Shown one piece after another: positions 25,484-63,717 of a stretch of DNA of 64,000 nt (the first letter of the stretch is position 1; every line of letters begins with the position of its first letter). The notes under the pieces are model-generated. The model was not told the DNA's origin, made no database searches, and saw only the letters and a program-made list of their open reading frames with translations. The stretch is from Branchiostoma floridae (Eukaryota > Chordata > Leptocardii > Amphioxiformes > Branchiostomatidae), in NCBI RefSeq assembly GCF_000003815.2, contig NC_049992.1, positions 11,520,884 through 11,584,883 on the forward strand, written 5' to 3'. The translations under genes were made by a program, and so were the position numbers.

Positions 25484-28400
25484 TCATAAGATGCCCAGTC
25501 GGTCAAATCTGTCCCGCTGACTGGTGTCTCTGGAACGGTCCCTAGAGTCAGCCTCTAGATAGTCTGCAAGTCTCGTGATCTTTTTCCTGCTCTCCTGTAA
25601 AACATGAAGATTCTTTTTTTAAACTACATTCACCATTTCCCTTGAAAGGCAAAGAGCATTGTAAAGTCTGTCTTGCTCCAGCAGGATTGTACCAGAAAGG
25701 TGAAGACAGTGAATATTGATTGTAGTTTCCTACTAGTACTTTTTTTAGAAATGGACAAATGTCTTCGGGTTTTGAAAAGTTATGAATATCATGATACTGT
25801 TCCTACTCTACTAACCCTGATCATCTGTTTGGCCTTCTCGGCCTGCTCATCAGCCTTCAGTCTCTCCTCCTGCAGGGCAAACCTGCTCTCTAAAGTCACC
25901 TGGTGTAGGGTCTCCTGGGTTCTCCTACATAACAAACAAACAACACACTCATTGATAGTTCAGTTACATCTTTCATTATCATATCAGCAATGCTATGAGA
26001 CAAATGATATTTGCAATATGATTAGAAATGAAGAAAATAAGTGCTAATTCCTTTTTTATGTTGGAAACTTTTCCTGTTTACCGTCCTGATCGTGCCCATC
26101 AATACAGCATGTCTGAGTCTATTGGTTAAAACAGAATATAACAACAAAAGGGTTAAAGATTGAGAACTAACCTTGACTTGTCCAGCTCTGTCTGAAGATT
26201 GTCAAACTTGGACTTGAACCACTCATGGGCATCCTGGAGGTTTTTGGATACCTTTGGAGAAGATAATGTTCAACAGTTATCACTTACATGGACATAATAC
26301 ATGGTATGTGTAGATAGGGACTTTTAACCCAGAATCTGAACAGCCGGAATCCAGACAGCTAGATTATGATATGGAGTAAAGTAATATCAATATTATGGAT
26401 ATGTAAGGAAGTCTTTACTGCCTGTAGAAAAAGATACTTGAAATGCCTTACCTCCATTGACTCATCATTAGCAGCAAGTAGTCTTTCTTCTATGTCTTTT
26501 CTTTTGCTTTCAATCTTTTTGGCTTTATGCTGAAAACATGACATGGGTGTAAGACTGTTATTTGAGCCTATTTGTCACTATTGTAGAGGGGGATCACTGT
26601 CAGTTCAAGAGGACAACTGAACAGTCTTGTGACCAAAGTACTGTAAATGCATTTAAGTTCGCGGGGATTTAATTTTGCAGTAGCGGGAAAAATGACTTTA
26701 CGCGGTGGTTTTAAGTTCGTGGTAGCACTATGCACTGTAGTTTCTTATTGCCATGGAAAACTGTTCGCGGTGGATTTAAATTTGCGGTGAAGTGGCCACA
26801 GGGAACCGTGAACATGAAACCACCATTAACATTTCTGTATTAACAGTAGCACATAATTACCCCAATAGAGTTGTGTTGAAGCTAGTTCATGTCTAATGTC
26901 TTTAAGATATAAAGTAACTGTGAACATATTACAAGTAATTACCTTACGAAATAAATGACACTTTTTCTAAAGCCCAAAAATATTATTAGGGCTACAGATA
27001 TCTGCTATGGGTGCCAATGATGTTCATATTTGTAGTATCACATGTGACAAAGGTCAATTATGATATCAATTTGGTGTTCTTGAACCTGTATCACTGCCAA
27101 GAAATAAGAACTCACCTTGTATTTTTCAGTCCTTTTTCTTTCCTTTTCAAGTTCATCTTCTTGGTGCCTGCAAAAAGAAAATTGATTGTTTTTTTATACT
27201 TAACAAACCTTTTATCAATCAGGTTAAAATACCAGTCTTCTTACAAATGTTCAGAAAAGGGTCAGTACAAAATACAAAAGTCTGGTACGACTTACTTCAC
27301 CACTTCTGAAGCCTCTACCTGAGCCCTAGCCAGGGCCTTCAGCTCTGACTTCAGACTGTTGATCTCCTCCAAAAAATTACTGATGGTTTTTGCCTGTGAA
27401 AAAAAAATGAATTTGTCATATTTCCCCACAGGACAAAGATATTATAAACTCACAACATTTTGATTAATGCTGAAAAAATGAAACAAAGAGTAATGTTGCA
27501 ATACCTGTTCTTTGTTCTTGCTGATATATTCAGTCTTCACCTTTTCCAAAGACTCCAACTCAGACTGTATGGACTAAAAGACAAAGGTAAACATTAGTTA
27601 TCAGATTGGTACCTTTTTTTGGTCTATTTGTGTTTCTTCTTTGATACCATATGACGCTGAAATACAGCTTTTTCTATTGAGAGTGTGAAGTCAGTAGGAG
27701 GATTATCAAAGTAAATGTGACTTCAGCACCAGAGACAGGACCAGTGTGAAGTCAATAGGAGGATAATCAGTGTGAATGTGAGTTCAGCACCATGGACAGG
27801 ATCAGTGTGAAGTCAGTAGGAGGATAATCAGTGTGAATGTGAGTTCAGCACCACGGACAGGACCAGTGTGAAGTCAGTAGGAGGATAATCAGTGTGAATG
27901 TGAGTTCAGCACCAGGGACAGGACCAGTGTGAAGTCAGTAGGAGGATAATCAATGTGAATGTGAGTTCAGCACCAGGGACAGGACCAGTGTGAAGTCAGT
28001 AGGAGGATAATCAGTGTGAATGTGAGTTCAGCACCAGAGACAGGACCAGTATGAAGTCAGTAGGACCAGTGTGTAGTCAGTAGGAGGATAATCAGTGTAA
28101 ATGCGAGTTCAGGGGCAGGACCAGTGTGAAGTAAGCATGACCAGTGTGACCTTACCTTGACCTTGCCCTGCGTGTGTTCATGGTTCTTCCTCTCCTTCTG
28201 CAGCTGGTCCAGCTGTACCTTCTGGCTCCTGATGCGGTCCTTCAGCCTGGCCAGCTGCTGTTCCAGCTCGTCTATCCTGCCCTGCAGCTGTTTGTTAGTA
28301 CGCGACAGGTCCGAAACACGAGAGAACGACTCCTCGTGGACTCTCCTCAGCTGTACAAATGAGAAACAACTTATCCATAGTGCACTTTGCAACAAAAACT

Positions 28401-37400: not shown

Positions 37401-40400
37401 CACACAGACACACCCAAAACTATACCTCCATTTTTTTCATGGAGGTAAAAACATGAAAAGCCCCTTTAAGGTCGCATAACACAGTATTTATGGGCGACCC
37501 CCGTGGACATAAGTAGATCGGGCACAAAATAGGTCGTCGCAGTTCTTGAAAAGCCATAGAAATTTTTCTGTGCACGTCAGCGAGTCGGAAACTGTGGTGA
37601 ATAGTAGAGGGATACGTAAGTTTTGAGGCTGTATGAGTTGGGTTACGATGTTTGTTTGGCTGGGTAGAATTTCGCGCACGAATCCGGTTCCCGCTACTTC
37701 CGTGTGTCGGCTGCAGTATGGTGACCTCCGCTGGGGGTCATTTCAAAGTGTTCTTTCTGGGAAAACGAGACGACAAACTTCATCTCGTTTTCACATATGT
37801 TGTAGATTATACCCTCAACTCCAACATATCGAATTCTTGTTAATTACTTTTGCACCCTGATATATTTTTTGAGTCGTCGAACCACCTCACTTTGGGGTCC
37901 TTAACCATGTAAATCCCCATAGGCGAAAAACTGTGTTCTGCTACCTTTAACCAAAGTGGGAATTCCCCAGGGACGGACAACAGCATTAAATTTGACTGAT
38001 ATGTTAGGTACTGACGTCGACTGACTTGAACTATAACATATTTGTTACCGTCAGACCCGCCGTTACCATGGCAACGGCCGCCAAGACCGCGCCCTATGCT
38101 TAAGTATAGGACTTAGTGTGAGCCAATACCCGCTCTTCCCCCCCCCTTTTTCCGCCGAAAAAAGACTAACCCCCAACCCCAATCACTCAGAAAGTTAGAA
38201 TAAGGTCTGGCAAGGTCTTTGTAGAAGAAAAAGTCAACCAGAATATTAGATTTGTTGAGATAGTGAGACCAATTAGCGGCCCCACAGATAGCCCTTGTAC
38301 GGGGCCGACACCTGTGCTAGGCGTCGAAGTGCAAAGTTGGCCATATCTCAGGAACCATTTGGATTTCTGCTCTAAAACTTGGTACGGTTTTATATCTTGA
38401 CTAGTTTTATCGTATGAGCGGAAAAAAATCCAAGGTCAAGTTTGCTTAAGGTCGCATAACACAGTATTTATGGGCGACCCCCGTGTCTAAAGGTCGATCG
38501 GGCACAAAATAGGNNNNNNNNNNNNNNNNNNNNNNNNNNNNNNNNNNNNNNNNNNNNNNNNNNNNNNNNNNNNNNNNNNNNNNNNNNNNNNNNNNNNNNN
38601 NNNNNNNNNNNNNNNNNNNNNNNNNNNNNNNNNNNNNNNNNNNNNNNNNNNNNNNNNNNNNNNNNNNNNNNNNNNNNNNNNNNNNNNNNNNNNNNNNNNN
38701 NNNNNNNNNNNNNNNNNNNNNNNNNNNNNNNNNNNNNNNNNNNNNNNNNNNNNNNNNNNNNNNNNNNNNNNNNNNNNNNNNNNNNNNNNNNNNNNNNNNN
38801 NNNNNNNNNNNNNNTCTTGTTAATTACTTTTGCACCCTGATATATTTTTTGAGTCGTCGAACCACCTCACTTTGGGGTCCTTAACCATGTAAATCCCCAT
38901 AGGCGAAAAACTGTGTTCTGCTACCTTTAACCAAAGTGGGAATTCCCCAGGGACGGACAACAGCATTAAATTTGACTGATATGTTAGGTACTGACGTCGA
39001 CTGACTTGAACTATAACATATTTGTTACCGTCAGACCCGCCGTTACCATGGCAACGGCCGCCAAGACCGCGCCCTATGCTTAAGTATAGGACTTAGTGTG
39101 AGCCAATACCCGCTCTTCCCCCCCCCTTTTTCCGCCGAAAAAAGACTAACCCCCAACCCCAATCACTCAGAAAGTTAGAATAAGGTCTGGCAAGGTCTTT
39201 GTAGAAGAAAAAGTCAACCAGAATATTAGATTTGTTGAGATAGTGAGACCAATTAGCGGCCCCACAGATAGCCCTTGTACGGGGCCGACACCTGTGCTAG
39301 GCGTCGAAGTGCAAAGTTGGCCATATCTCAGGAACCATTTGGATTTCTGCTCTAAAACTTGGTACGGTTTTATATCTTGACTAGTTTTATCGTATGAGCG
39401 GAAAAAAATCCAAGGTCAAGTTTGCTTAAGGTCGCATAACACAGTATTTATGGGCGACCCCCGTGGACATAAGTAGATCGGGCACAAAATAGGTCGTCGC
39501 AGTTCTTGAAAAGCCATAGAAATTTTTCTGTGCACGTCAGCGAGTCGGAAACTGTGGTGAATAGTAGAGGGATACGTAAGTTTTGAGGCTGTATGAGTTG
39601 GGTTACGATGTTTGTTTGGCTGGGTAGAATTTCGCGCACGAATCCGGTTCCCGCTACTTCCGTGTGTCGGCTGCAGTATGGTGACCTCCGCTGGGGGTCA
39701 TTTCAAAGTGTTCTTTCTGGGAAAACGAGACGACAAACTTCATCTCGTTTTCACATATGTTGTAGATTATACCCTCAACTCCAACATATCGAATTCTTGT
39801 TAATTACTTTTGCACCCTGATATATTTTTTGAGTCGTCGAACCACCTCACTTTGGGGTCCTTAACCATGTAAATCCCCATAGGCGAAAAACTGTGTTCTG
39901 CTACCTTAAGAATTACAGTTTGGCATTATCACTATTAAGAACTGATGATGCAAAGGACCTAATGCTGTGGGTGATGGGTACACCACCTATCAGTTCACTA
40001 CAGAACTGCTGCAATGTTGACTGAACATAAAATGTCTAAAAATTTGCATTACTTTCAATCCATGCATGATTTTATCAATAGTAAATAATACAACAGTTTG
40101 CAAATTTTTTATTTCTGTGCAGTAAGAAGTATAACTGTGAGTGTGACCTTGAGTGCCTGTTGGTGATCAGACATGAGTTTAGCGATCTCTCCTGAGGCAG
40201 TCTTCAGGGCTTCATGGGCCTCCTGGTTCTCCTTCTCCAGCTGATGATAGGCCTCCCACAAATAAGGAACAACAGGCTGTATGTGTCAATGAAGGTAACA
40301 CACAGGTAACAAGATACACCAACAAGCAGTTACTCTGATAAAGCAACTGGATATGATATGGCAAATGGTCTGACGTTCCAGGTAGCATCCACTACCTTTT

Positions 40401-43400: not shown

Positions 43401-44448
43401 AAAACAGTTCCCTGACCTTCTCAGTGTTGGAGACCTCCAGTGCATTTTGTAACTGTTGTACATCCAGGACTGCCGTCTCCCTCCTGTTCTCAGCCTCCTC
43501 CACGTCTCTCTGTAACCGCTCCTGACGACCTTTCAACTTCTTCACCTCGCGGTCGTAAGCCTCCACAGCAGCCGCCATCTGTTCATTGGCTCCCTGGATG
43601 GGGGGATGACCAAGATGTTGATGAATGATTGGATAAGGAAAAAATCTACAGAGTACAGTACAACATGTAACTATATTGATAGCAAATAAGTAAACTGCAC
43701 TCTTCTAGTACTGTAAAGTTTTATCTACCAATATCCTAGGCACATGATAAGCCTGTAACAGTGAGAATAGCTTATGAAAAAGACTACAACTTACAAGCTA
43801 CTGCTGTTTTTTTTCTTGTTGAAACATCTGAGAATGTTGACCAGTATCCTTTCTGGGGAATTTCAGGCAGAGTAGCAATGTTCAATTACTGGTCAAAATT
43901 TTGCATGTGATTGTGAACAATAAACAAACATGTAAATTTGCTGTTGGACTATAACATTTGAGGCCAGAACTTACGAGCTGCTTCAGGAGTATCTTTTATT
44001 ACACCATCTCCTATGTGAGTCAAAGCACAATAAAGTCGTCATTTTCTATCTAAACATACAATACCTGAGTATCTTTCCCCCTCAAGTCTTTCTCAGCCTG
44101 CAGTGTAACCAGGTTCAGCTTCAGTGACTGTATAGTGCTCTCAGTCCTGCACACCCTCGCCACTAGTTCCTCATACTTTTTCTGCAGCACCTCGGGGGCC
44201 ACCTGAGCTGCCCTGTGCTGGAACGGACTGATGGGACCCTGTACGCCAGGATCCAGGGCCTGTGATCCGGCCTGTCGTTGTGACATGATCACACGTGGAT
44301 CAAACCCCATCTCAGCTAGCTGTGACAGAAGACTGTGGGTGTCGCCCTCCGTGGACTGGAGACGACTTTCTAAGACGTGCAGAGTGTCCTTGGTTGGTGA
44401 CCCTGGGGGCCCCCGTGAGGCGGGGATGACTTGTCGTTGGCGTGACAT
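25484..44448 (-). CDS. CCDC150: CCDC150 orthologue, coiled-coil protein, 28 coding exons
   Basis: Long coiled-coil protein; function poorly known. Coding exons, 5' to 3' on the minus strand: 44448-44065, 43593-43417, 42415-42347, 42092-41976, 41612-41483, 41024-40981, 40617-40525, 40240-40148, 36640-36516, 36167-36083, 33451-33404, 33118-33005, 32475-32383, 31986-31903, 31491-31321, 30806-30684, 30186-30017, 29689-29596, 29222-29053, 28764-28638, 28350-28156, 27573-27505, 27393-27296, 27167-27116, 26529-26452, 26251-26172, 25924-25816, 25594-25484. All GT-AG, all phases agree; total 3,303 nt, 1,100 aa, against about 1,100 for human CCDC150. Matching stretches include SLKLNLVTLQAEKDL near the N-terminus, DSKNRLAYDKGKLQ, QTELGRKDSEIAAMK, DLSRTNKQLQGRIDEL and AHEWFKSKFDNLQ-ELDK near the C-terminus. 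Nearly the whole product is heptad-rich. The start M-S-R-Q-R-Q lies in the first coding exon, whose acceptor is CTTCACAG at 44465, so a non-coding first exon is required. Confidence 0.93.
26640..26830. repeat. Dispersed GTTCGCGGTGG-type repeat in a CCDC150 intron
   Basis: Contains aagttcgcggggattt, cgcggtggttttaagttcg and gttcgcggtggatttaaatt: related units in tandem with inverted flanking pieces. It has the look of a MITE-like repeat. No ORF. Confidence 0.55.
27681..28150. repeat. 61-bp minisatellite in a CCDC150 intron
   Basis: About seven and a half copies of a 61-bp unit (ggaggataatcagtgtgaat, gtgagttcagcacca, ggacaggaccagtgtgaagt, cagta). Central units are nearly identical, edge units degenerate. 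The array reaches within a few bases of the splice donor of the exon 28350-28156. Confidence 0.92.
30913..31187. repeat. Two-copy direct repeat (~137 bp) in a CCDC150 intron
   Basis: ctctcctgtccgatcaagta at 30923 is followed about 130 bp later by ctctcctgtctgatcaagta, and both lead into gccactagtgaataaatt or accactagtgaataaatt. The two copies are clearly diverged. Confidence 0.75.
31625..31750 (+). repeat. Possible tRNA-derived SINE fragment
   Basis: The stretch ggtccagagttcgatactcg resembles a tRNA B box and T arm (stem GAG..CTC around TTCGA). No convincing A box or acceptor stem is seen, so it is not a tRNA gene. Confidence 0.35.
33536..34753 (-). CDS. Large ORF inside a CCDC150 intron: alternative exon or nested gene
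   Basis: An open frame of 422 codons from ATG 34753 to a stop at 33485, on the CCDC150 strand, between the exons 36167-36083 and 33451-33404. The product is hydrophilic with two related charged segments (DSLKTEIKILTREKKRLLEK and KSLKEEVKLLRKQRKQLVEQ), probable coiled coils, and a Lys-rich centre. A donor AGG|GTAAAA at 33536 and a candidate acceptor GTTTCTGTCAG before 34591 would give a 1,056-nt cassette, phase 0 at both ends, exactly the phase of the surrounding CCDC150 exons; alternatively it is an alternative first exon or a separate gene. The 28-exon CCDC150 already matches the human length without it. Such a long open frame in this AT-rich intron is unlikely by chance. Not recognised as any known family. 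Confidence 0.55.
34790..36060. other. CCDC150 intron sequence, nothing recognised
   Basis: About 1.3 kb between the large ORF and the exon 36167-36083. No exon, RNA gene or clear repeat seen. Confidence 0.4.
37217..37447. repeat. Dispersed repeat, copy 2 (first copy at 12105-12265)
   Basis: Same family as 12105-12265, here longer. Contains an (ac)n-gacagacac microsatellite and ends in ctccatttttttcatggag, an imperfect palindrome. It directly precedes the TIR-element array. Confidence 0.65.
37466..39909. mobile_element. Tandem array of a TTAA-flanked TIR element, 980-bp period
   Basis: Three copies of a 476-bp element (37470-37945, 38450 to about 38925, 39430-39905) alternate with two copies of a 504-bp spacer, an exact 980-bp period. 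Element ends are imperfect inverted repeats: GGTCGCATAACACAGTATTT on the left against GGTAGCAGAACACAGTTTTT read inward from the right. The whole array is bounded by TTAA at 37466-37469 and 39906-39909, as expected of a piggyBac- or Kolobok-like insertion. Copies 1 and 3 look identical; copy 2 differs just inside its left end (ccccgtgtctaaaggtcgat against ccccgtggacataagtagat) before the gap. No transposase ORF; small open frames inside it are not conserved genes. It lies in the CCDC150 intron between exons 40240-40148 and 36640-36516. Confidence 0.85.
38514..38814. other. Assembly gap, 301 N, inside the TIR-element array
   Basis: The flanks keep the 980-bp register exactly (tcttgttaatt at 37835 and 38815), so the gap size is right and the missing sequence should be element copy 2. 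Confidence 0.9.
42643..43021. mobile_element. Short TIR element (CAGGGCTCGAAAT ends, 5-bp TSD)
   Basis: Begins CAGGGCTCGAAAT, ends ATTTCGAGCCCTG, and is flanked by ATTCC on both sides (42638-42642 and 43022-43026). Length 379 bp, no ORF. The interior is packed with GTGCACCC/GGGTGCAC repeats in both orientations. Same terminus and duplication length as 5301-5627 but a different internal motif. In a CCDC150 intron. Confidence 0.85.
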
Positions 44449-44784
44449 TTTGCCACTATAGGCACTGTGAAGACAAATTCATACTGAGCAGGGATGTAGC
44501 TTACAGTAATACAGATTACTTATGGCAGCTTGAGAATCAACAACATTTAGTTTGTAGCCAGGTAGGATGCATCTGAACTCTCCCAATTATGTTCCCAGAA
44601 AGTACAATATATTAGACGTAACTGTTATGATTTACGAAGAACCTTCAAAAATTTGTGTCTGGTGTTTTGGGCATCACTAAGGAGCTTGGCATAATTTTTT
44701 TTATCATGCCCAAAAAACTTGAATAAGTAAAAAGTTTGTTTTATGTTCTTGTTGTTTATCTTGCAAGTATACAAAAGTAACGGG

Positions 44785-45243
44785 TTCCGCGCTGGTGTTC
44801 CAGTGCTGAACTATGGGTCGAATCGGCCTCAGCACTGGTTTTCCAGTGCTGAAGAAACGTCAGCACTGGTTTTCCAGTGCTGAACGGCCTTGTTCGAGTG
44901 CTGAAGCTCCCTCAGCACTGGAATTCCAGTGCTGAACCCAATGCGAGCACTGGATTTCCAGTGCTGAACTTCTCCGAGCACTGGTTTTCCAGTGCTGAAC
45001 TACCGTCAGCACTCGGGTACCAGTGCTGAACTCGCGGCAGAGGTCATTCAGCACTGGTTACCCAGTGCTGAAACCGCCGTCAGCACTGGAACCGAGTGCT
45101 GATATACAAAAGTAACGGGTTCAGCACTGGATTTACCAGTGCTCGGTAACTTTTCAGCACTGGAATACCAGTGCTGTAAAAACTTCAGCTCTGGGCTTCC
45201 AGTGCTGACATTTATAAAGCACTGGAACGTTCCAGTGCTGAAC
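44785..45243. repeat. Left palindrome array of the transposon (~14 units)
   Basis: Units of about 22-24 bp such as CAGCACTGG-TTTT-CCAGTGCTG, separated by 5-20 bp. Several units have substitutions in one arm (e.g. CAGCACTCGGGTACCAGTGC). It contains an internal copy of the terminal sequence, tatacaaaagtaacggg, near 45103. Each unit can form a hairpin with a 9-bp stem. Confidence 0.9.
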
Positions 45244-45679
45244 GTTATATCTGTTCTTACATTTTCAATATCACAAAGAAACGAGAAGAAGCCGAATGTA
45301 CGCAGTAGATTACGATCCTTGAGTAGTGTAGATTCATTGTATCATTATATCATGTTGTATCATTTGTTGTGACCTGTACTAAACCCAGTGGGTATGAATG
45401 TACAAGAAAGGTCTTCATTCATTCAATATTCGTGTACTAGTAGCATACGTCCGTACGGCTGTCTGAGTTATTTCCTTTAGACTTAGGTTTATCTGTGCGT
45501 GTTATTTAATATCCAATCAGATCTTGCGTGGCACTAGCTTTTACTAGCTTTAGACTAGAGTAGAGACTTGTGATATTGTTAATTGTGTATACAGTTAATG
45601 GCACTCAAGTTTCTTTTCTTTTGTTCAATTGATAGAAAATTTCAAATTACTAATCACATATTCTATACTTGTGGCAAAG

Positions 45680-46115
45680 TAGTGTCTTTTTAGTCAGAGG
45701 TAGACAACTAACAGTTGGTCTATCTGTGTGGTAAAGAGATCGCTTGTTTTTTATTACAAAGAATAGGTAGTTACAGGTGGACGACACATTCTGCTTGTGC
45801 GGCAAAGTAACATCATTTAAAAAACAATAGGTAGTCAGAATTAGACAACTAACAGTTGGTCTATCTGTGTGGTAAAGAGATTGCTTGTTTTTTGTTTTTT
45901 TTACAAAGAATAGGTAGTTACAGGTGGACGACACATTCTGCTTGTGCGGAAAAGTAGCATCATTTAAAAAACAATAGGTAGTCAGAGTTAGACAACTAAC
46001 AGTTGGTCTATCTGTGTGGTAAAGAGATCGCTTTTTTTTACAAAGAATAGGTAGTTACAGGTGGACGGCACATTCTGCTTGTGTGGCAAAGAAGCATCAT
46101 TTAAAAAAACATTGT
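45680..46115. repeat. Central tandem repeat of the transposon (~143 bp, three copies)
   Basis: The block aactaacagttggtctatct recurs at 45706, 45847 and 45994 (141 and 147 bp apart), each followed by a wtggtaaagagat-type segment, ggtagttacaggtggac and a catcatttaaaaaac end. Confidence 0.85.
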
Positions 46116-46184
46116 ATAATACAGTTGTCCATTTATATTTTGTTACAGAATGTAAGTTCTTTTCACCAACTTTATACATTCTAT

Positions 46185-46590
46185 ACTCGGTTTCCAGTGC
46201 AGAATATTTGTCAGCACTGGATTTCCAGAGCTGAAATGTCCTCAGCACTGGAAATCCAGTGCTGATTGTAGTCTCAGCACTCGGTTTCCAGTGCTGACAG
46301 GAGGGCTTCGAGTGCTGAAGCTGCCTCAGCACTGGATTTCCAGTGCTGAACTGCCGTCAGCACTCGGGTACCAGTGCTGAACTCGCGGCAGAGGTCATTC
46401 AGCACTGGTTACCCAGTGCTGAAACCGCCGTCAGCACTGATTGTAGTCTCAGCACTCGGTTTCCAGTGCTGACAGGAGGGCTTCGAGTGCTGAAGCTGCC
46501 TCAGCACTGGATTTCCAGTGCTGACGCCGGCTCAGCACTGGATTTCCAGTGCTGACGACCACTTCAGCACTGGTGTTCCAGTGCTGGCAG
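46185..46590. repeat. Right palindrome array of the transposon (~13 units)
   Basis: Same palindrome as the left array. A stretch of about 85 bp around 46352-46437 (gtcagcactcgggtaccagt onward) is nearly identical to about 45004-45089 of the left array, in the same orientation. A second internal duplication (caggagggcttcgagtgctg) occurs at about 46299 and 46470. Confidence 0.88.
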
Positions 46591-46807
46591 AGGAGACCGT
46601 TACTTTTGTATATTTGCGTTTATCTTTCTTTTCGCAACCATTGTCTGGCCATAAGCATTCTTCTGCAGACAGACATGTGAAGTTTGTACTAATTTCTAAC
46701 AAACCAAAACAAATAATTTACTAGTACCCCCCTCCCCACAATTCACTGTCGAAATTCAACTATTCCTAATGACGACTCTGAGGTAGATCTAAACTTGTAG
46801 TACCTAC

Positions 46808-53666: not shown

Positions 53667-53951
53667 CTGAAAAGTAACGGAAACCCTTGGTTTGATAGAA
53701 ACTTCAAACATTGCACCTAACCTAACAAAATTTTACGTTTTGGTCACAATTGCAACAAGAATGGTGTTAAAAACACCCTGGCGACGCTGGGTCTAATGGA
53801 TTTGTGAGTCTCTATATGAAAAGGATGTTTATTAGCTAGCCATGCTCACAACACAGTCTTGCACGCACACATTTCCATGCAATGATTCCATCTTGGGAGA
53901 AGCCTCGCAAACATTTTATCAACTCTGCAGAAAAAGTTAAGCTTGCCTCAT

Positions 53952-54766
53952 NNNNNNNNNNNNNNNNNNNNNNNNNNNNNNNNNNNNNNNNNNNNNNNNN
54001 NNNNNNNNNNNNNNNNNNNNNNNNNNNNNNNNNNNNNNNNNNNNNNNNNNNNNNNNNNNNNNNNNNNNNNNNNNNNNNNNNNNNNNNNNNNNNNNNNNNN
54101 NNNNNNNNNNNNNNNNNNNNNNNNNNNNNNNNNNNNNNNNNNNNNNNNNNNNNNNNNNNNNNNNNNNNNNNNNNNNNNNNNNNNNNNNNNNNNNNNNNNN
54201 NNNNNNNNNNNNNNNNNNNNNNNNNNNNNNNNNNNNNNNNNNNNNNNNNNNNNNNNNNNNNNNNNNNNNNNNNNNNNNNNNNNNNNNNNNNNNNNNNNNN
54301 NNNNNNNNNNNNNNNNNNNNNNNNNNNNNNNNNNNNNNNNNNNNNNNNNNNNNNNNNNNNNNNNNNNNNNNNNNNNNNNNNNNNNNNNNNNNNNNNNNNN
54401 NNNNNNNNNNNNNNNNNNNNNNNNNNNNNNNNNNNNNNNNNNNNNNNNNNNNNNNNNNNNNNNNNNNNNNNNNNNNNNNNNNNNNNNNNNNNNNNNNNNN
54501 NNNNNNNNNNNNNNNNNNNNNNNNNNNNNNNNNNNNNNNNNNNNNNNNNNNNNNNNNNNNNNNNNNNNNNNNNNNNNNNNNNNNNNNNNNNNNNNNNNNN
54601 NNNNNNNNNNNNNNNNNNNNNNNNNNNNNNNNNNNNNNNNNNNNNNNNNNNNNNNNNNNNNNNNNNNNNNNNNNNNNNNNNNNNNNNNNNNNNNNNNNNN
54701 NNNNNNNNNNNNNNNNNNNNNNNNNNNNNNNNNNNNNNNNNNNNNNNNNNNNNNNNNNNNNNNNNN
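53952..54766. other. Assembly gap, 815 N
   Basis: May hold upstream exons of the secreted-type gene on the minus strand. Open frames reported across it would be artefacts of N. Confidence 0.9.
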
Positions 54767-55298
54767 ACCTACATATTTTTTCTTAAGTTACAAGATCTAT
54801 CTTAGACTTATGAATCTTGACCAAAGCATGGCCAGAACACTAGATATCAAAACCGAAAGTTCACTGCAGTACGCTAGAAAACCGATAGGCGGAACCATTT
54901 TAGAACTTGACTTTTATGTTCACGACCCTACCCACATTCAAGATTCAACAGAATCCATACTTTGCGAGTTATGCAGGCTACAAACAGACACACGTGGAGA
55001 TAAACGGCACCGAACACATAACCTTTAATGGACAAAGTTACGTTTTAACGTATTACGCTTGGGTTCTGTATTCAGTGCAAAGCTTTGTTGAGACTCCCCC
55101 ACTCCAAAAGAGATATCTAAATAATACAAATTCCAACTACTACCATGATACTATCTCCGCCGGACCAAACCTCTGCTTGGAGAATATGTGTCACGATGGT
55201 CTAAATAGGCCCTGAAAATCCTATCTTGAAAGCCATGTCAATCAATGCCAATCATCCATTTCACTAATGGCAACGGTAGCTGATTGGTTCTCACCTTT

Positions 55299-56215
55299 GA
55301 GGGCGGAAACTTGAAATGTTTTTGTTTCACCTAGACGAGCTGAGTCTTTCCCGCGAACTTACCCTTTCAAATGCACGCCTGTCTCCGCCCCAATTGTTCC
55401 CCTGTTTGCACAGTAAACAATACCCAAGCTTTCATTCCTACGATGACGCATCTTTAATACTGACACAGCCCTCTCAGTCCCTTCTTTGCTATATTCTCGT
55501 CGGTTTCGAGACGACTCGGCACCTGAGACAACTCGGCCCTAGTCGGCACCATACTTACTCGGCACATAACTTTTATATTTTGCACTCGAAGAATGATAAT
55601 CCTATCATTCNNNNNNNNNNNNNNNNNNNNNNNNNNNNNNNNNNNNNNNNNNNNNNNNNNNNNNNNNNNNNNNNNNNNNNNNNNNNNNNNNNNNNNNNNN
55701 NNNNNNNNNNNNNNNNNNNNNNNNNNNNNNNNNNNNNNNNNNNNNNNNNNNNNNNNNNNNNNNNNNNNNNNNNNNNNNNNNNNNNNNNNNNNNNNNNNNN
55801 NNNNNNNNNNNNNNNNNNNNNNNNNNNNNNNNNNNNNNNNNNNNNNNNNNNNNNNNNNNNNNNNNNNNNNNNNNNNNNNNNNNNNNNNNNNNNNNNNNNN
55901 NNNNNNNNNNNNNNNNNNNNNNNNNNNNNNNNNNNNNNNNNNNNNNNNNNNNNNNNNNNNNNNNNNNNNNNNNNNNNNNNNNNNNNNNNNNNNNNNNNNN
56001 NNNNNNNNNCTTAGAGGGCGGAACTTGAAATGTTTTTGTTTCCCTAGACGAGCTGAATTTTTCCCGCGAACTTACCCTTTCAAATGCACGCCTGTCTCCG
56101 CCCCAATTGTTCCCCTGTTTGCACAGTAAACAATACCCAAGCTTTCATTCCTACGATGACGCATCTTTAATACTGACACAGCCCTCTCAGTCCCTTCTTT
56201 GCTATATTCTCGTCT
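55299..56215. repeat. ~200-bp direct repeat on both sides of an N gap
   Basis: gagggcggaaacttgaaatg at 55299 and gagggcggaacttgaaatg at 56015 begin nearly identical stretches of about 200 bp (through caaatgcacgcctgtctccg, ctttcattcctacgatgacg, ctttgctatattctcgtc). A 399-N gap (55611-56009) separates them. Either a tandem duplication or a haplotype overlap that was not merged. Confidence 0.8.
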
Positions 56216-56219
56216 ATTC

Positions 56220-57510
56220 TGTCACCAATATTTATAAAATACCGAAGCTAAGGTGCAAGGAAATATCAGTTTCCGACATTCCCCCGGGGCATTCCCCGCG
56301 CGGGGCCGGTGACGCGCGGAACCCGTCGCCATTTCCGTTCTTTCCTACGTACATTATATCTGCGCTAGACACACACAAATTTAACCGGCAGAGTACGGAT
56401 AGTTCGTCGATGAAGTCGACTTTCTATATGTGTATAATTTGTTTTCAAAACACATCCATGAAAGCAACGTCAACACTGACCGCCTTGCTACATATTTCCG
56501 CCCTTGATTGAGAACTTGACTCTGGCCCTGTCCTGTTCTATCAATAATCGACAACGCCTCGGAAATATCAACCCTCGCTTTCCGATTTAATAAGGTATTC
56601 TTTCCAATAACTCATTACAGCTATGTATTTCTCCATTCTAATGGACTACAGTTCCTGATTCAATACGACCGGTAACAAACTCTGCACAAGCCGCTGTTTG
56701 ATGCGTCGGCATGTGTTCGACTAGCTCTGGCGTCCTTGATAGGAAAATTGAAATTGAAAAAAAAGCCACATCTATGTAAATAAAAACGCAACTTGTAATG
56801 AAGCACACAATGTAAAGCAAAGTCTGGGGAAGAAGGGGGAATTGACGAGGAAGCTGGATTAGATCGGTCGGTCGGCCCTCCAGTTTGTTTACAAACCGAC
56901 GCCTGGCGATGTTTGAATCAATGTGTTGAAAAAAAGAATATATATCGGCTTTTAATACGTAGTAAACTTTTGGTGTCCTTCTGCTTGAAACTGAAACATT
57001 ACACAAAAGATTTGAATTTTACTAAAACACACAGAAGTAATTTAGTTGGTGAAGGAGGGGTTAAAGAGAGTGTTGTTGTTGTTTGCAGCCCGGGATCCTT
57101 GTCTTACAACCGACGCCATTTTTTCCGTTTGTCATAGATCTGCGAATCTTCATTCGTATTGTCGTTATTCTCCCCAAATGTGAATGTCACTAGCTGAGCA
57201 AGTAAAACACTCAAAGTGGTAATCGTGACTCGTACAAGTACTAGTAACAAAGATCAAGTCAACCTAACTATAAAATGTATATGCGAAAGCCCACTCATTC
57301 ACTTCTTGCAGATTGTTTGTGTTTTCTTTTATAAATTTGGGGCATCAAAAACTCCTCATTTTGGGATCATAAATCCATGCAGCTCCCCACCTATGTAATA
57401 TCTGCTGCGCTATTATTAAAACCGTGGCAGTGACTAGACACCCTTTTACCCATGATCAGCATAGAAAACTTAGTTTCTACGTGTTGTCGGGCGTGTACGC
57501 CGGGGGTTGA
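56220..57510. other. Spacer without recognised genes
   Basis: No exon, RNA gene or clear repeat seen. Confidence 0.4.
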
Positions 57511-57511
57511 A

Positions 57512-57865
57512 GTCTGAAATCATTACTGCTTTCGTTGGGTGTTTGGTCAACGTTGCGATATCAAAATTCCGCCGTTACCTATTTATACAATCAAGGATAA
57601 AACCTCATTGTTACAAATGTGGCCTTACAAGAGGGTGATAGAATGCCTCGCGGGAGGTATTCATTCACACCATGTCGTATAACAGTTCTCTCGAAGGCGA
57701 TTAATCTATATGCAAAACAAATGGCCTTCTGATGTTAGGCCGACAAAAGATCTCTCAACGTTATGACACCGGCCTTCTGGACAACTGTGAGAGTTGAGTA
57801 GAAACAAAACTCCTGGCTCCCGGGATTCGAATCCCGGCCGCCAGATTACAAAACAAGCGTTTATA
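57512..57865. mobile_element. Deleted copy of a repeated element with SINE-like end
   Basis: 57512 to about 57770 is nearly identical to 59187-59446 (gtctgaaatcatta ... ttatgacaccgg). It is then fused directly to sequence matching 59907 onward (ccttctggacaactgtgaga), skipping about 460 bp present in the other copy. It includes a T-arm-like cccgggattcgaatcccggc but has lost the A-box region, which is replaced by tttatataaacccatag. Confidence 0.75.
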
Positions 57866-58361
57866 TAAACCCATAGGCCGAAAAGGTCTTTCTACTACAA
57901 TGTCGCTGTTGGCCCGGTCAAAAGGCGGGAAAAACTTAACACCCCGTTCAAGAAGATGTATACTAAAGACCAATTATTTGCTCTGTGTGTATGTCTTCCT
58001 TTCTTGTATCGACAATAAATTGATGTATCACTCAGGTAGGAAACGAGTTATCTGCTTTTTAACCTTTCTTTAATACGTTCGTCTGATTTAATAGGGTATT
58101 TTGAAAGCAGTGTATAAGGGTCACTTTTATACTACGCATCCTCTCTGTAAGTGATTTTTGCTGTTTCTTGACATGACCACCATCAATGCGTTACCTTGAC
58201 AAATATTCAGCAATGTGTATCAGTGTGTAGACATGAATACCCCGCCGTGCCTTGGGCGGGGCAAATTCCCCTGACAACGCGGACAAAAGCATAGCAACCG
58301 TACCACCGTGTGTCACGAGATAACATCGTGAGGACCAGGTCGCCTCTGTAATTATAACCAT

Positions 58362-58425
58362 ATGGACAGGGGTCGGGTTGGCCTGGCCGTGTGTCGGGTT
58401 GGCCTGGCCGTGTGCCGTGGCAGTC
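58362..58425. repeat. Short tandem repeat of about 22-23 bp
   Basis: gtcgggttggcctggccgtg occurs twice in a row with a third partial unit, next to the 58552-58864 N gap. Confidence 0.6.
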
Positions 58426-59186
58426 AAGACAGAACACGACGCGAGAGAGGACGTGGATGTTTACAGAGTAATGTACAGCGTAGAGTACAGAGGGCTGGGA
58501 AACAGAATGAAGTTGATCAGTTTAACAAGTATATGGCTGTCACCCGTACATNNNNNNNNNNNNNNNNNNNNNNNNNNNNNNNNNNNNNNNNNNNNNNNNN
58601 NNNNNNNNNNNNNNNNNNNNNNNNNNNNNNNNNNNNNNNNNNNNNNNNNNNNNNNNNNNNNNNNNNNNNNNNNNNNNNNNNNNNNNNNNNNNNNNNNNNN
58701 NNNNNNNNNNNNNNNNNNNNNNNNNNNNNNNNNNNNNNNNNNNNNNNNNNNNNNNNNNNNNNNNNNNNNNNNNNNNNNNNNNNNNNNNNNNNNNNNNNNN
58801 NNNNNNNNNNNNNNNNNNNNNNNNNNNNNNNNNNNNNNNNNNNNNNNNNNNNNNNNNNNNNNNNTTGGTGGAAATTATTGGTGGACCGTGTTGTGGATAC
58901 CGGTATCGTCCTGTACTGTACTTTATTGTAGTCTTAAATTTGTCGACACTTAGTTATGTGATTGTGACCCGGAGGTCTGAATCGGGCAGCGATCCACCAT
59001 TTTGAAAACAGGTTTGGGTTACGTAACGTTAGCGTTACCTTTTTTGTACTACCATAGTTTATGCTCAAGTTCTTGTTTCTATATCTGTTCACTGCGTAAA
59101 CGGTTGTGTATTTTTCTTCTTGCCACATGTCTTCTTTGGATTGTTTTGTGACCTATGCAGTGAGCGAGAAATCCGCATAGTGAAAT

Positions 59187-60030
59187 GTCTGAAATCATTA
59201 CGGCTTTCGTTGGGTGTTTGGTCAACGTTGCGATATCGAAATTCCCCCGTTACCTATTTATATATCAATGATAAAGCCTCCTTGTTATAAATGTGGCTAA
59301 CAAGAGGGTGGTAGAAATGCCTCGCGGGAGATGTTCATTCACACTATGTCGTATAACAGTTCTCTCGAAGGCGATTAATCTATATGCAAAACAAATGACC
59401 TTCTGATGTTAGGCCGACAAAAGATCTCTCAACGTTATAACACCGGTATTTCCCTTTGATACCGATATGTGATGTGTCGAGTGATTGCATACCAAAAGAA
59501 GGTCTCACTATAGCCGCCCAAGACCATGCAGTGACGAATTGTTTTAGCGAATTAATACAATAGAGAGATGCCAGCCAGTCTATACATATTCTGAATACTG
59601 GATGTGATTTAGTTTTCTTCTGATATAACGGCAACTGGGAAATACAGACGGGATCCCGTTCTTGTATACGAGAACGTCTGACACGTCTGTTCTGTGAGGT
59701 ACCCTCTGCTATACAGCAATGTTTGATGAAAAAACGCCTCAGGAGCTTTCCAAACTTGTCAGGTGACAGTTCGCTCGAGGTCCCGCTTGTTTGTTCCAGC
59801 TTTTGTTTCAGTTAGATTTCATGAAGGAAATACACAGCTGGTTGAAGAGAGCAACTCAATGGTGCAAATCTCTAACCATTCTCGTCATATTTGGTCAGTG
59901 CCTTCTCCTTCTGGACAACTGTGAGAGTCGAGTAGAAACAAAACTCCTGGCTCCCAGTCCGGGATTCGAATCCGGGCCGCCAGATTACAAAACAAGCGCT
60001 AACCGCTACGCCGAAAAGGTCCGGGCCATC
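59187..60030. mobile_element. Longer copy of the repeated element, with tRNA-derived SINE at its end
   Basis: Undeleted partner of 57512-57865. Its 3' part, read on the minus strand from about 60022, has an A-box-like GGCGTAGCGGTTAGCGCTTG and, about 35 nt on, a B box in GGCCCGGATTCGAATCCCGG, the spacing of a tRNA promoter. The rest does not fold as a tRNA, so this is a tRNA-derived SINE or a SINE inserted in a larger element. Confidence 0.7.
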
Positions 60031-60080
60031 GGGCGTTTGGCGTGGAGCTGGTCAGATTGGCGAAGTTGAACTCAACTGCC

Positions 60081-60135
60081 GGACCGATTTTCACGGCCCT
60101 TCTATGGGAGTCGGTCCGGTCGTGAGAATCGGTCC
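60081..60135. repeat. Inverted repeat, 15-bp stems
   Basis: GGACCGATTTTCACG and CGTGAGAATCGGTCC (one mismatch) flank a short loop that itself contains gtcggtccgg, giving a potential hairpin or a small palindromic element. Confidence 0.6.
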
Positions 60136-60987
60136 TCCCTCACAGTCTTCCAAATGGAGTAAGAGTCTATGTGATGACAATGACTTTTATTAACTCGGAA
60201 ATGTCTACATGTACTTGAGTCATGACAGTCAGTTTCAGAAGTGGCTGCGGAAATATAAATATACATATAAAAGTATCACAAATCTAGTCTAACACAGAAG
60301 TTCGGCTTCTTCTCGCTTCTTGTGTAGGATAACGTGAAAATGTAGGATTAACTCGGACATAAACATTGTTTTAACATTCAAGTTTTTGCAGTAGTGGGAT
60401 TGACAGAAGTTGTGGTGTTATGATTTCTTTAGAAGTGCTGAAAATACTTATTTACTCAATCTTATTAAGTCTTTTGAATTATGTCTACATATCTCCTATG
60501 TCCCATGAGTCCCATGAGCTACCATAGTTAGGTTGCCCCATCTTATGGAGTATTTTGAATTATGTCTACCCCACTCTTANNNNNNNNNNNNNNNNNNNNN
60601 NNNNNNNNNNNNNNNNNNNNNNNNNNNNNNNNNNNNNNNNNNNNNNNNNNNNNNNNNNNNNNNNNNNNNNNNNNNNNNNATAGGGAGTTGAGATTGAATG
60701 AATACAATTATTATACAATGTGATACTACTAATAATTAAACATCATATCTACAAGCTATGTACAGGCAGCACAGCTATGAATAATGTCTCTTGAATGCAG
60801 GCAGAGTCTCATAAGTCTGACATCCGTGCTATATGCTAGCCCACATTCATAAGGATTTTAATTTTATTCTTTCTACTTTTGTAGTTGTCTACATTGTACT
60901 GTGCGGATATTCTGGCCTTTCCAAATATACTCTCCAGTTGAATATTCCAGTAACGGTCAGCTGTTCCCTCTTCGTCCCTATCCACAG

Positions 60988-61096
60988 TTACAGTGCCGCA
61001 GGGGTACGTACTTGACGATTACGTCAGACGATGGCGGTTCCAGTAGGTCAATGTTCGAAGCAGCTGCGGGTAAACGTCTTTCGGTATGTCGTCAAG
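60988..61096 (+). other. Unassigned exon-like segment
   Basis: A strong polypyrimidine acceptor (gttccctcttcgtccctatccacag, given here as its last bases tccctatccacag) and a consensus donor GTCAAG|GTAAGTAAG bound 109 nt. Only one frame is open through it (L-Q-C-R-R-G-T-Y ... S-V-C-R-Q), 36 codons. No family recognised. Confidence 0.35.
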
Positions 61097-61652
61097 GTAA
61101 GTAAGCACGATGTTCCAATGCGTCGAGTTACCAGAGTTCAACTTAGCACAACTTTAGGCAACTAAGTCAAAATCTGTACACTGCATTTCAGCTAACAAGG
61201 CATAGATAAGCTTACCTGACTCATGAATGCCGAAGTTCCAATTTCTACAATGTTTTCTGGTTGTTACGAATTGACAAGAAAGAGAAGAGAATTGTTCTTG
61301 TACTTCAATTTTAACCTTTGTTCTTTGCGTGCGTTCTCCCTACGTACAGCAGCTCCTGAGATGAACATTAGCTAACTGTGACGACCATCCATGTGGTGAC
61401 TTAGTCCATGTAGAACACCAACAGACGTGCAGCGATAGTAGCAAATTTATGAGGGTGACTTTATAATAATCCATTATTGCTAGCATCACTATTATTATAG
61501 TATATAAAACGGGTAAAACTGTGTTCTCTCGTGATCTAACGCACAGGCCAACCTACCGGACAAGAGCGACGACGACGAGGTGTTCCTGACAGACATATAT
61601 TATGTCCATCAGAACGACACATTCCCACCACACCCAACATAGAGACTCTTAC

Positions 61653-61797
61653 CGCCACAAGGGAAGTAGGTCGAGTCCCTTCACGAAAAGTGGCCATCGC
61701 TGAGAGGAGCCAGAATATACGTTTGTGCGGCTTGAACATTCTTAACAGAAGGGAGCCACACAACATCCAGAACAGCGCCATCGACAGAAGGAAGGCA
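61653..61797 (-). other. Unassigned exon-like segment, hydrophobic
   Basis: Acceptor ACTTCCCTCACAG and donor GTGGCG|GTAAGAG bound 145 nt with one open frame: AFLLSMALFWMLCGSLLLRM then FKPHKRIFWLLSAMAT, one membrane-spanning segment and the start of a second. It looks like an internal exon of a multi-pass membrane protein. Family not recognised; no partner exons found. Confidence 0.4.
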
Positions 61798-62360
61798 CTG
61801 TGAGGGAAGTAGAGGCCAGTAGCAGAGCCAAGACGTACAGCCGATAGTTGTGATCATACTTGTCCATGTATAGAAAACCTGACATGACACCAGTTATAGA
61901 ATTCACGGATTGACTGACTGTTTATATCACGAATATGTATTTTAGTGTATACATTGTAGTAGTTGATTTTACATGTATATGAATGGACCGTAGATGAAAT
62001 AGCCGTTGTTTTGTGGTTTGACAAGACCTGTCTGTTTGATACGCCAAAATGTGACCACGAGATATAATGTATTTGTATGACAGATAGTCAGAGAGTAAAG
62101 ATCAGAAGAGAAATTAAGATCCTCAGCTAAGACCGAGGTTAGCGAGGTCAGCATTACTAGTATATAGTAACGTCAAACCACCTTAACAGTCTCCCGTGCC
62201 CAGTGTACGGAAAACCTTGTCTCTGCGTCCTTCCTTTATTATAGCTGTGCTAGTCTTCAAAGCAGAATCTAAACAACTTGAACCCATTGGTTTCATGGCT
62301 TGTTTGAAACGATGTGACTTATTAATTTTTCAAAATCAGGCTTTACGTAATCTGTATCTA

Positions 62361-63717
62361 ATATAGCCGGTATAACCGCCCTTCGGCGTAACACACCAGC
62401 TTCAATTGCAAACGACAACCACCTGAAAGCACATCATTTCATATTTCATAAAAAGATATCGACAAAAATCTGTGACATATTGGTCTTCATTATTTCTTTG
62501 ACCTCGTGAAAGCATATCATCCCACCTTGTAAAAGCAAAGCTCAAAAGATGTTGGCAAAACTTGCGCTACATTGGTCTTGTCTTCTTTAAAACATCTTAT
62601 TTTCCTACCACTAAAAATCAGGCTCTCTATTACTCCGAACGATTTATTAACCACTTGACAGCATTTCATTCCATATTGTAAAAAGCGCAGGCTTATAGAG
62701 ACATAACGGCAAAAAGCTGGGACATATTGGTCTTCATTGCAAATTCATAAAGCATGCAAAACATCGTAATAATCTGTGTGTGCGGCTTATGATATGCAAG
62801 GAGCGTAGTCATTCCCGGCTATGTAAAAAGACCGTTCCCTTAAATCATTAATCCCTGAAAACAAAGAATGCCGTGGCAAAGAAAATAACAGCTAGAATAG
62901 TCCTCAATTGCCAGTGTATGGACGACACCCCTACGGTTTAGCCAAAAATCAATTCCCAAGGGAATGCANNNNNNNNNNNNNNNNNNNNNNNNNNNNNNNN
63001 NNNNNNNNNNNNNNNNNNNNNNNNNNNNNNNNNNNNNNNNNNNNNNNNNNNNNNNNNNNNNNNNNNNNTTCAAAGCGATCGTAATACTGTAGAAAATGCC
63101 TCCGCCCCCTAAGGCGTCGCCAAAAAAAGGAGCCCACCGGGTAGTTAACGAGCTTTTTTCACTTTCAGGCGTGTCCTGTGCGGCTACCGATTATATCTGG
63201 GCACGGTCGGGCCCCGGCTTGAGTTAAAATCAACCCGGGACCGGGTGACAAATAGACGCCGTACTCTAATCCGGAGCACATCGAGATGTAACGTTACCCC
63301 CGCGGTATCCGGCAGTCCACTGGGACAAATTTGTGGCTACGGTGCCCGGCCAAGGATACAGCCTCTACGGGCATCGGTGCAAATGGGACCGTAACAAAAC
63401 CCAATTAAGATGACATTCCGGTAACTCAACCAAATAGATTGTAGACTGATTTTAAATATCTTGTTGTAGAGTTATTGAGAGTTCTGCAGAGTTAGAGTTT
63501 GTGTTACACGAACGAGGTGACGTTGTACAGAACAGGTAGTACTGCTTATAAATTTCCTGCAGTACATGTAACTATGCAGTATAATAAAGTACAAGAATAA
63601 TAAAAACTTATATGATACCTTCGTTCGGGTCGTTCGGTGTAATATAACCAGCTGCTGCCGCGCCGCGTACCCGCGAAGCTGGTGTGTTACGCCGAACGGC
63701 GGTTATACCGGCTATAT
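62361..63717. mobile_element. Non-autonomous TIR element, ~1.36 kb
   Basis: The left end, TATAGCCGGTATAACCGCC then CTTCGGCGTAACACACCAG and CTTC, is the reverse complement of the right end near 63675-63716 with one mismatch over about 41 bp. Flanking dinucleotides are TA-like on both sides. The interior carries three degenerate repeats of about 85-110 bp, each with a gacatattggtcttcatt-type block (about 62420-62740), a 100-N gap at 62969-63068 and no ORF. The superfamily is uncertain; a TA target would suit Tc1/mariner-like or similar. Confidence 0.8.

Follow-up and report, generated by a model that had tools for sequence, protein, structure and literature searches.

What is the role of dense arrays of a short palindrome that lie just inside both ends of a transposon-like element? 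This question is raised by a locus in the window, which is the whole 64,000-nucleotide stretch of the lancelet (Branchiostoma floridae) genome analysed here. The reason for long, repetitive transposon ends is an open question, for which Galileo of Drosophila provides one case of transposase binding at such ends; for the repeats of Foldback and Phantom elements, transposase binding was described as untested in the same paper (PMC3688188). The family presented here makes the question testable, since it has a defined unit, a spacing rule, copies carrying from one to 25 palindromes, and end polarity. As well, it bears on the mobile elements of chordates, in which Mutator-like elements (MULEs) are reported to be scarce (PMC6446971).

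Structure and placement of the element

The initial annotation described a 1,855-bp element with 21-bp inverted ends and clean 9-bp target duplications, and these boundaries were confirmed at 44763-46617 (plus strand). The left terminal inverted repeat, of the GCAAG type (GCAAGTATACAAAAGTAACGG, 44763-44783, plus strand), and the right one, of the GCAAA type (GCAAATATACAAAAGTAACGG, 46597-46617, minus strand), are identical at 20 of 21 bases, with one base different, and are the ends common to the genomic copies. The target sequence GTTTATCTT is perfectly duplicated on both sides of the element, at 44754-44762 on the left and 46618-46626 on the right.

Two arrays, whose unit is the 22-bp palindrome TCAGCACTGG-N4-CCAGTGCTGA, are located just inside the ends. 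The left array (44787-45240) contains 13 paired palindromes, while the right array (46194-46586) contains 10, the first at 46212, as well as half-sites; in all, this copy holds 23 paired palindromes and about five unpaired half-sites. About 27 perfect units had been proposed before; the two arrays stand, but the count falls to 23 paired units, only 11 of which have both arms exact. The spacer is 4 bp in 20 of the 23, and 3, 5 and 6 bp once each. All 34 occurrences of the sequence CAGCACTGG in the window fall within the element (shuffles: mean 0.47, largest 3), and the exact palindrome was found 769 times across the genome, compared with 0 for its reversed control.

Several other parts can be distinguished within the element. 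The left array includes the terminal core once more, as an internal copy (TATACAAAAGTAACGG, 45103-45118, plus strand), and a similar copy is present in 19 of 21 listed sequences. A 174-bp nested insert lies between TATAT and AATAT at 45251-45424 and was absent from the other 33 measured copies, according to an exact 24-base test and BLAST on the fetched loci. In the middle of the element, a 147-bp unit is present three times in tandem (45691-46108), and the longest open frame inside the element spans 134 aa. The right array also carries an 86-bp patch (46354-46439, plus strand) identical, in direct orientation, to 45003-45088 of the left array, and an 88-bp block (46437-46524, plus strand) repeating the block from 46262. 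The 86-bp patch was detected in the window copy only, by an exact 60-base test of the 34 copies that a diverged patch would escape.

The CCDC150 label and the placement of the element in the first intron of that gene were not confirmed, and the protein of the minus-strand frame at 44050-44478 has no match in Pfam. An ATG in this frame, at 44446-44448, is separated from the element by 314 bp, and the element is possibly located in a promoter or in an intron of the 5' UTR.

Genome-wide copies and target duplications

The genome search covered the 513.4-Mb assembly of 431 contigs, in which the window sits in contig C14. The whole element gave at least 240 matches, with 40 of 1,845 candidates scored, and many of them begin exactly at the first base of the element. 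With up to 2 mismatches allowed, 270 matches to the 21-bp end were found, compared with 2 for the reversed control, while exact ends number 72 for the GCAAG type and 68 for the GCAAA type. Further copies with these ends, which the initial annotation suggested looking for, therefore exist, and its assignment of the element to a non-autonomous transposon is supported by these copies and their target duplications.

A total of 34 copies were measured, including the window copy, 19 of 20 loci of one set and 14 of 14 of another; L011, the second end of which was not found, was left out of the 35 sequences. These copies were picked for having both ends exact, and the absence of any divergence in their 21-bp ends follows from this selection. 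The 9-bp duplications are perfect in 26 of the 34 copies and have one mismatch in four, while four (L013, L015, L017, and L020) have none. In three small copies, the two flanking sequences agree in 9, 8, and 7 of the 9 bases of the duplication. For instance, the miniature copies L063 and L064 (G000:C323 160827-160903 and 232716-232856) are 77 bp and 141 bp long, carry one and three palindromes, and are flanked by duplications matching at 7/9 and 8/9 bases, respectively.

Copy L022 (290 bp, with a perfect duplication) is located inside a dispersed repeat, and empty paralogous sites were found for it: other copies of this repeat, including one at 26646-26837 of the window, read through the insertion site and have the target only once, and the four copies displayed show 70-79% identity and no gap at the junction. 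For L009, the junction-spanning matches fall in a CTGT-rich stretch. The joined flanks of the window copy match only its own two halves in this assembly, with an overlap equal to the 9-bp duplication, and no second allele representing an empty site was found for this copy in the assembly.

Pairing of the exact ends gave 44 pairs within 12 kb in which a GCAAG end faces a GCAAA end, with lengths of 77 to 9,863 bp, and no facing same-type pair in that range, exact ends only being counted. The two ends therefore retain distinct identities, and this end polarity, GCAAG joined to GCAAA, is newly described here.

Some loci have a more complex structure. At seven of them (L034, L035, L036, L038, L044, L046, and L047), the sequence is a left-end fragment of the family within a larger dispersed repeat, because the outer flanks are common to these loci and align too. 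L057 and its relatives, examined as a second interior subfamily, resemble a series of internal deletions; the 1.37-kb interior of L057 has 40 matches, and no transposase was recognised by eye in its frames of at least 30 aa. At L040 (G000:C9 5179519 and 5179910), a GCAAA end and a GCAAG end lie 391 bp apart in the same orientation, which possibly represents tandem or rearranged copies.

Conservation of the palindrome arms

Conservation was analysed in an alignment of the 31 copies longer than 900 bp (L020, L022, and L056, at or below 900 bp, were dropped), in which the right array was represented by six units only. In the left array, differences from the consensus amount to 84/7,199 (1.17%) in the arms, 242/5,129 (4.72%) in the linkers, and 44/1,659 in the loops, and in the right array to 66/3,284 (2.0%), 175/2,057 (8.5%), and 63/728, respectively. 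The arms thus vary about four-fold less between copies than the linkers, a difference newly described here, which was reached in 0 of 20,000 permutations of the arm and linker labels in either array and persists outside CpG. When each distinct change per column was counted once, the direction was the same, but the contrast became smaller (arm versus linker, 0.265 versus 0.575 on the left and 0.426 versus 0.603 on the right). The contrast of 0.95% versus 9.65%, obtained with interior columns included among the linkers, is larger for that reason.

These data bear on the explanation that the arrays have no function and result from slippage and from unequal exchange among self-complementary repeats. 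Such exchange is visible in the window copy, where the 86-bp patch of the left array stands in the right array next to the 88-bp duplication, and array lengths differ from copy to copy. The about four-fold lower divergence of the arms in both arrays makes this explanation quite unlikely, albeit less strongly when each change is counted once. Moreover, the consensus retains unit-specific arm variants, contrary to simple homogenisation, so that homogenisation alone would be insufficient for the conservation of the arms.

Spacing and helical phasing

The 34 copies contain 656 palindromes, 557 of which have the 4-base spacer. At least 17 palindromes are held by 31 of the 34 copies, the richest copies hold 25, and the 77-bp copy holds one. 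Among the 587 spacings between neighbours that are shorter than 90 bp, 416 are 31 or 32 bp, 76 are 42-44 bp, 65 are 52 bp, 17 are 63 bp, and 13 fall elsewhere. The best period over the 34 copies is 10.5 bp (mean cosine 0.906), that is, the palindrome centres are mostly about three, four or five helical turns apart, which is also newly described here.

The spacing counts, like the arm cell counts, are not independent, because the copies share ancestry. For the consensus spacings other than 31/32 (44, 52, 42, 42, and 52), 222 of 200,000 draws from a uniform null were as good; the corresponding numbers were 1,069 of 200,000 with four consensus spacings and 5,016 of 200,000 with the three distinct values. 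Under the uniform null, the support for the phasing thus amounts to about 0.001 to 0.025; its weak points are the few independent spacings and the poor fit of 44 bp. Null tests on the spacings of the window copy gave 0/20,000 and 1/100,000, both overstated because the window array includes copied blocks, and the consensus values take their place.

Folding of the arrays

The arrays might instead function as hairpins or cruciforms, whose extruded stems would guide cleavage or mobility, and we consider this highly improbable. Folding of the single strands is much stronger than that of shuffled sequences (z -21.6 and -16.2), which is what any palindrome array must give. Among 5,223 paired arm cells, 130 carry one-sided changes, three carry double complementary changes, and six carry double non-complementary changes. 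The nine double changes exceed the roughly one expected from single-change counts under independence, an excess that favours paired stems but is explicable by clustered mutations or misalignment; complementary ones, at 3 of 9, are at the one-in-three level of chance. When all 656 units were compared with the ideal palindrome, five double changes were observed against about 14 expected under independence. All these counts may include neutral changes acquired after insertion. The arm mismatches kept in the consensus (8 of 13 units on the left and 2 of 6 on the right) also speak against hairpins, which would have no need of helical phasing.

Two mechanisms had been put forward in the initial annotation. 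Multivalent binding sites agree with the arm constraint and the helical phasing, from which we infer binding, while cruciform-driven mobility is unsupported, because complementary double changes are at the level of chance and the consensus keeps mismatched arms.

Proposed function of the arrays

We favour, with moderate confidence, a non-autonomous foldback-type cut-and-paste transposon in which the palindromes act as phased sites for protein dimers. Provided in trans, a transposase would recognise both 21-bp ends and make the 9-bp target duplications. The 22-bp palindromes would be dimer binding sites presented on one helix face, with centres about three, four or five turns apart, on which several dimers could sit in a row at each end, building a large synaptic complex. 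The bound protein would most likely be the transposase itself. In Galileo, the THAP domain of the transposase binds repeats inside the long ends (PMC3688188), and Muta1 (PMC5225508) and Tm1 (PMC3169594) provide precedents in which subterminal repeats are paired with 8-9-bp and mostly 9-bp duplications, respectively. Against this explanation stands the fact that no transposase-encoding copy was found. Long arrays may be dispensable, given that a single palindrome remains in the 77-bp copy, although this copy may have shrunk after insertion.

The protein bound by the arrays may alternatively come from the host, as an architectural protein or a repressor (a dimeric zinc-finger protein or similar), with the transposase needing only the 21-bp ends. 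Constraint and phasing would fit any dimer, the search of the fetched loci found no copy with a transposase, and the copies of 77, 141, 290, and 360 bp carry few palindromes. We regard a host protein as unlikely, since the arrays lie at both ends rather than in the middle and most copies (31 of 34) hold at least 17 palindromes, an arrangement that fits end recognition and is no proof of it.

The arrays could even work as a tunable multivalent reader, in which dimers of one protein, bound to the phased palindromes on one DNA face, would polymerise into filaments or clusters, and array length, altered by exchange between arrays, would set how efficiently a copy moves. We propose this only tentatively and consider it rather unlikely.

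Comparison with known transposons

The family shows the composite terminal repeats of the foldback-type class, with arrays of self-complementary units at both ends (31 of 34 copies with at least 17 units), and its target-site duplications (perfect in 26 and with one mismatch in 4 of the 34 copies). Foldback FB4 has 31-bp repeat units and 9-bp duplications, and the repeats of FB are, to our knowledge, not short palindromes; elements of the P superfamily make a shorter target duplication. The 9-bp length also falls within the 8-11 bp spanned by the target duplications of MULEs (PMC6446971). In its structure, the element resembles foldback-type Mutator derivatives; membership of the Mutator superfamily is not claimed, because no related copy with a MULE transposase was found, and absence in one assembly is not proof.

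The Mutator/Foldback element Tm1 of root-knot nematodes is similar to the family in having mostly 9-bp duplications, composite ends of repeated short motifs with two differing end types, and copies that are mostly non-coding (PMC3169594). However, the repeats of Tm1 are motifs of 13-15 bp, as opposed to a 22-bp palindrome at a spacing of about 31 bp here, and one copy of Tm1 has a Phantom-type transposase (PMC3169594), while none was found for the lancelet family. Muta1, a MULE of Aedes aegypti referred to as a "type 2 Foldback element", shares the 8-9-bp duplications, the subterminal repeats at both ends, and non-autonomous derivatives that vary in interior and repeat number, but differs in its nine 12-bp tandem repeats, which are separated by 3-4-bp spacers within a 145-bp end, and it has a known transposase and moves in yeast (PMC5225508).

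Galileo has similarly long and internally repetitive ends, in which several sites for the DNA-binding (THAP) domain of the transposase were found by footprinting and gel shift, but it belongs to the P superfamily, and the word "palindrome" is absent from the text of the paper (PMC3688188). Drosophila Foldback FB4 resembles the family as a non-autonomous element with large inverted ends and a variable interior (PMC2955051). Rehavkus has 9-bp duplications too, and a minisatellite before one end; unlike the present family, it is reported from arthropods and annelids only and has a PHD-finger transposase (PMC6446971).

The minisatellite 'mirages' of lancelet genes were rejected as a counterpart, being duplications of exon-intron boundaries (PMC3087553). 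LanceletTn-2 is named among the known lancelet MITEs (PMC5802833). No description of this palindrome-array family was recognised in the literature searched, and the family may match a known lancelet MITE or a Repbase entry.

Search for a transposase source

A longer copy with the same ends and a transposase gene, as suggested in the initial annotation, was looked for and not found. Among the 44 exact-end pairs, 37 were read fully and the one on C191 partly, while those of 1,226, 1,267, 1,473, 1,527, 1,697, and 2,582 bp were left out. The three pairs longer than 3 kb appear to be enlarged by insertions and were rejected as autonomous copies: the 4,198-bp pair (L010) contains a reverse-transcriptase frame, the 7,773-bp pair on C191 has an open frame that looks like a LINE by eye (3,801 bases read), and the 9,863-bp pair (L009) contains a nested repeat of about 8.7 kb. 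The main blocks of this nested repeat (399-9109 of L009) are 95-99% identical to 53754-62968 of the window.

Pfam scans of the fetched loci covered 119 frames, namely 20 larger ones and 99 of the 174 remaining frames of at least 98 aa; 17 of the first 20 and all 99 came from the 20 loci with an unpaired exact end (interior up to about 9.3 kb each). No transposase was detected in the 119 frames, or in these 20 loci, except for one Mos1-type HTH in one member, and the 119 frames yielded no MULE domain and no THAP or P-type domain. The source of the transposase has thus been lost, is missing from the assembly, has diverged ends, or falls beyond the scanned set.

The MULE domain PF10551 has 27 matches in the genome above the curated cut-off, several of them in open frames of at least 350 aa. 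The smallest distance between such a match and an exact end is 31,676 bp, and a contig lacking exact ends holds one of the matches. These 27 matches disagree with a review which reports no MULE transposase in Branchiostoma floridae (PMC6446971). PF12762 (Merlin/IS1595) has three matches in the genome, and exact ends are not close to any of them (the distance is about 336 kb on C6, and no exact end is listed on C245).

Other features of the window

The relative of the repeat nested in L009 occupies 53754-62968 of the window as a repeat of about 9 kb. By eye, this repeat may have short inverted ends (AATGGTGTT... and ...GGCGTCGCC), and CAAG is repeated at the junctions in L009. Near-identical reading frames at 37420-38435 and 38820-39820 flank a gap of N at 38514-38814 and, judged by eye, represent a local duplication or an assembly artefact. 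Finally, two long similar frames on the minus strand (1708-4542 and 7385-10292) have leucine-rich repeats and a TIR-like end, and by eye they look like Toll-like receptors.
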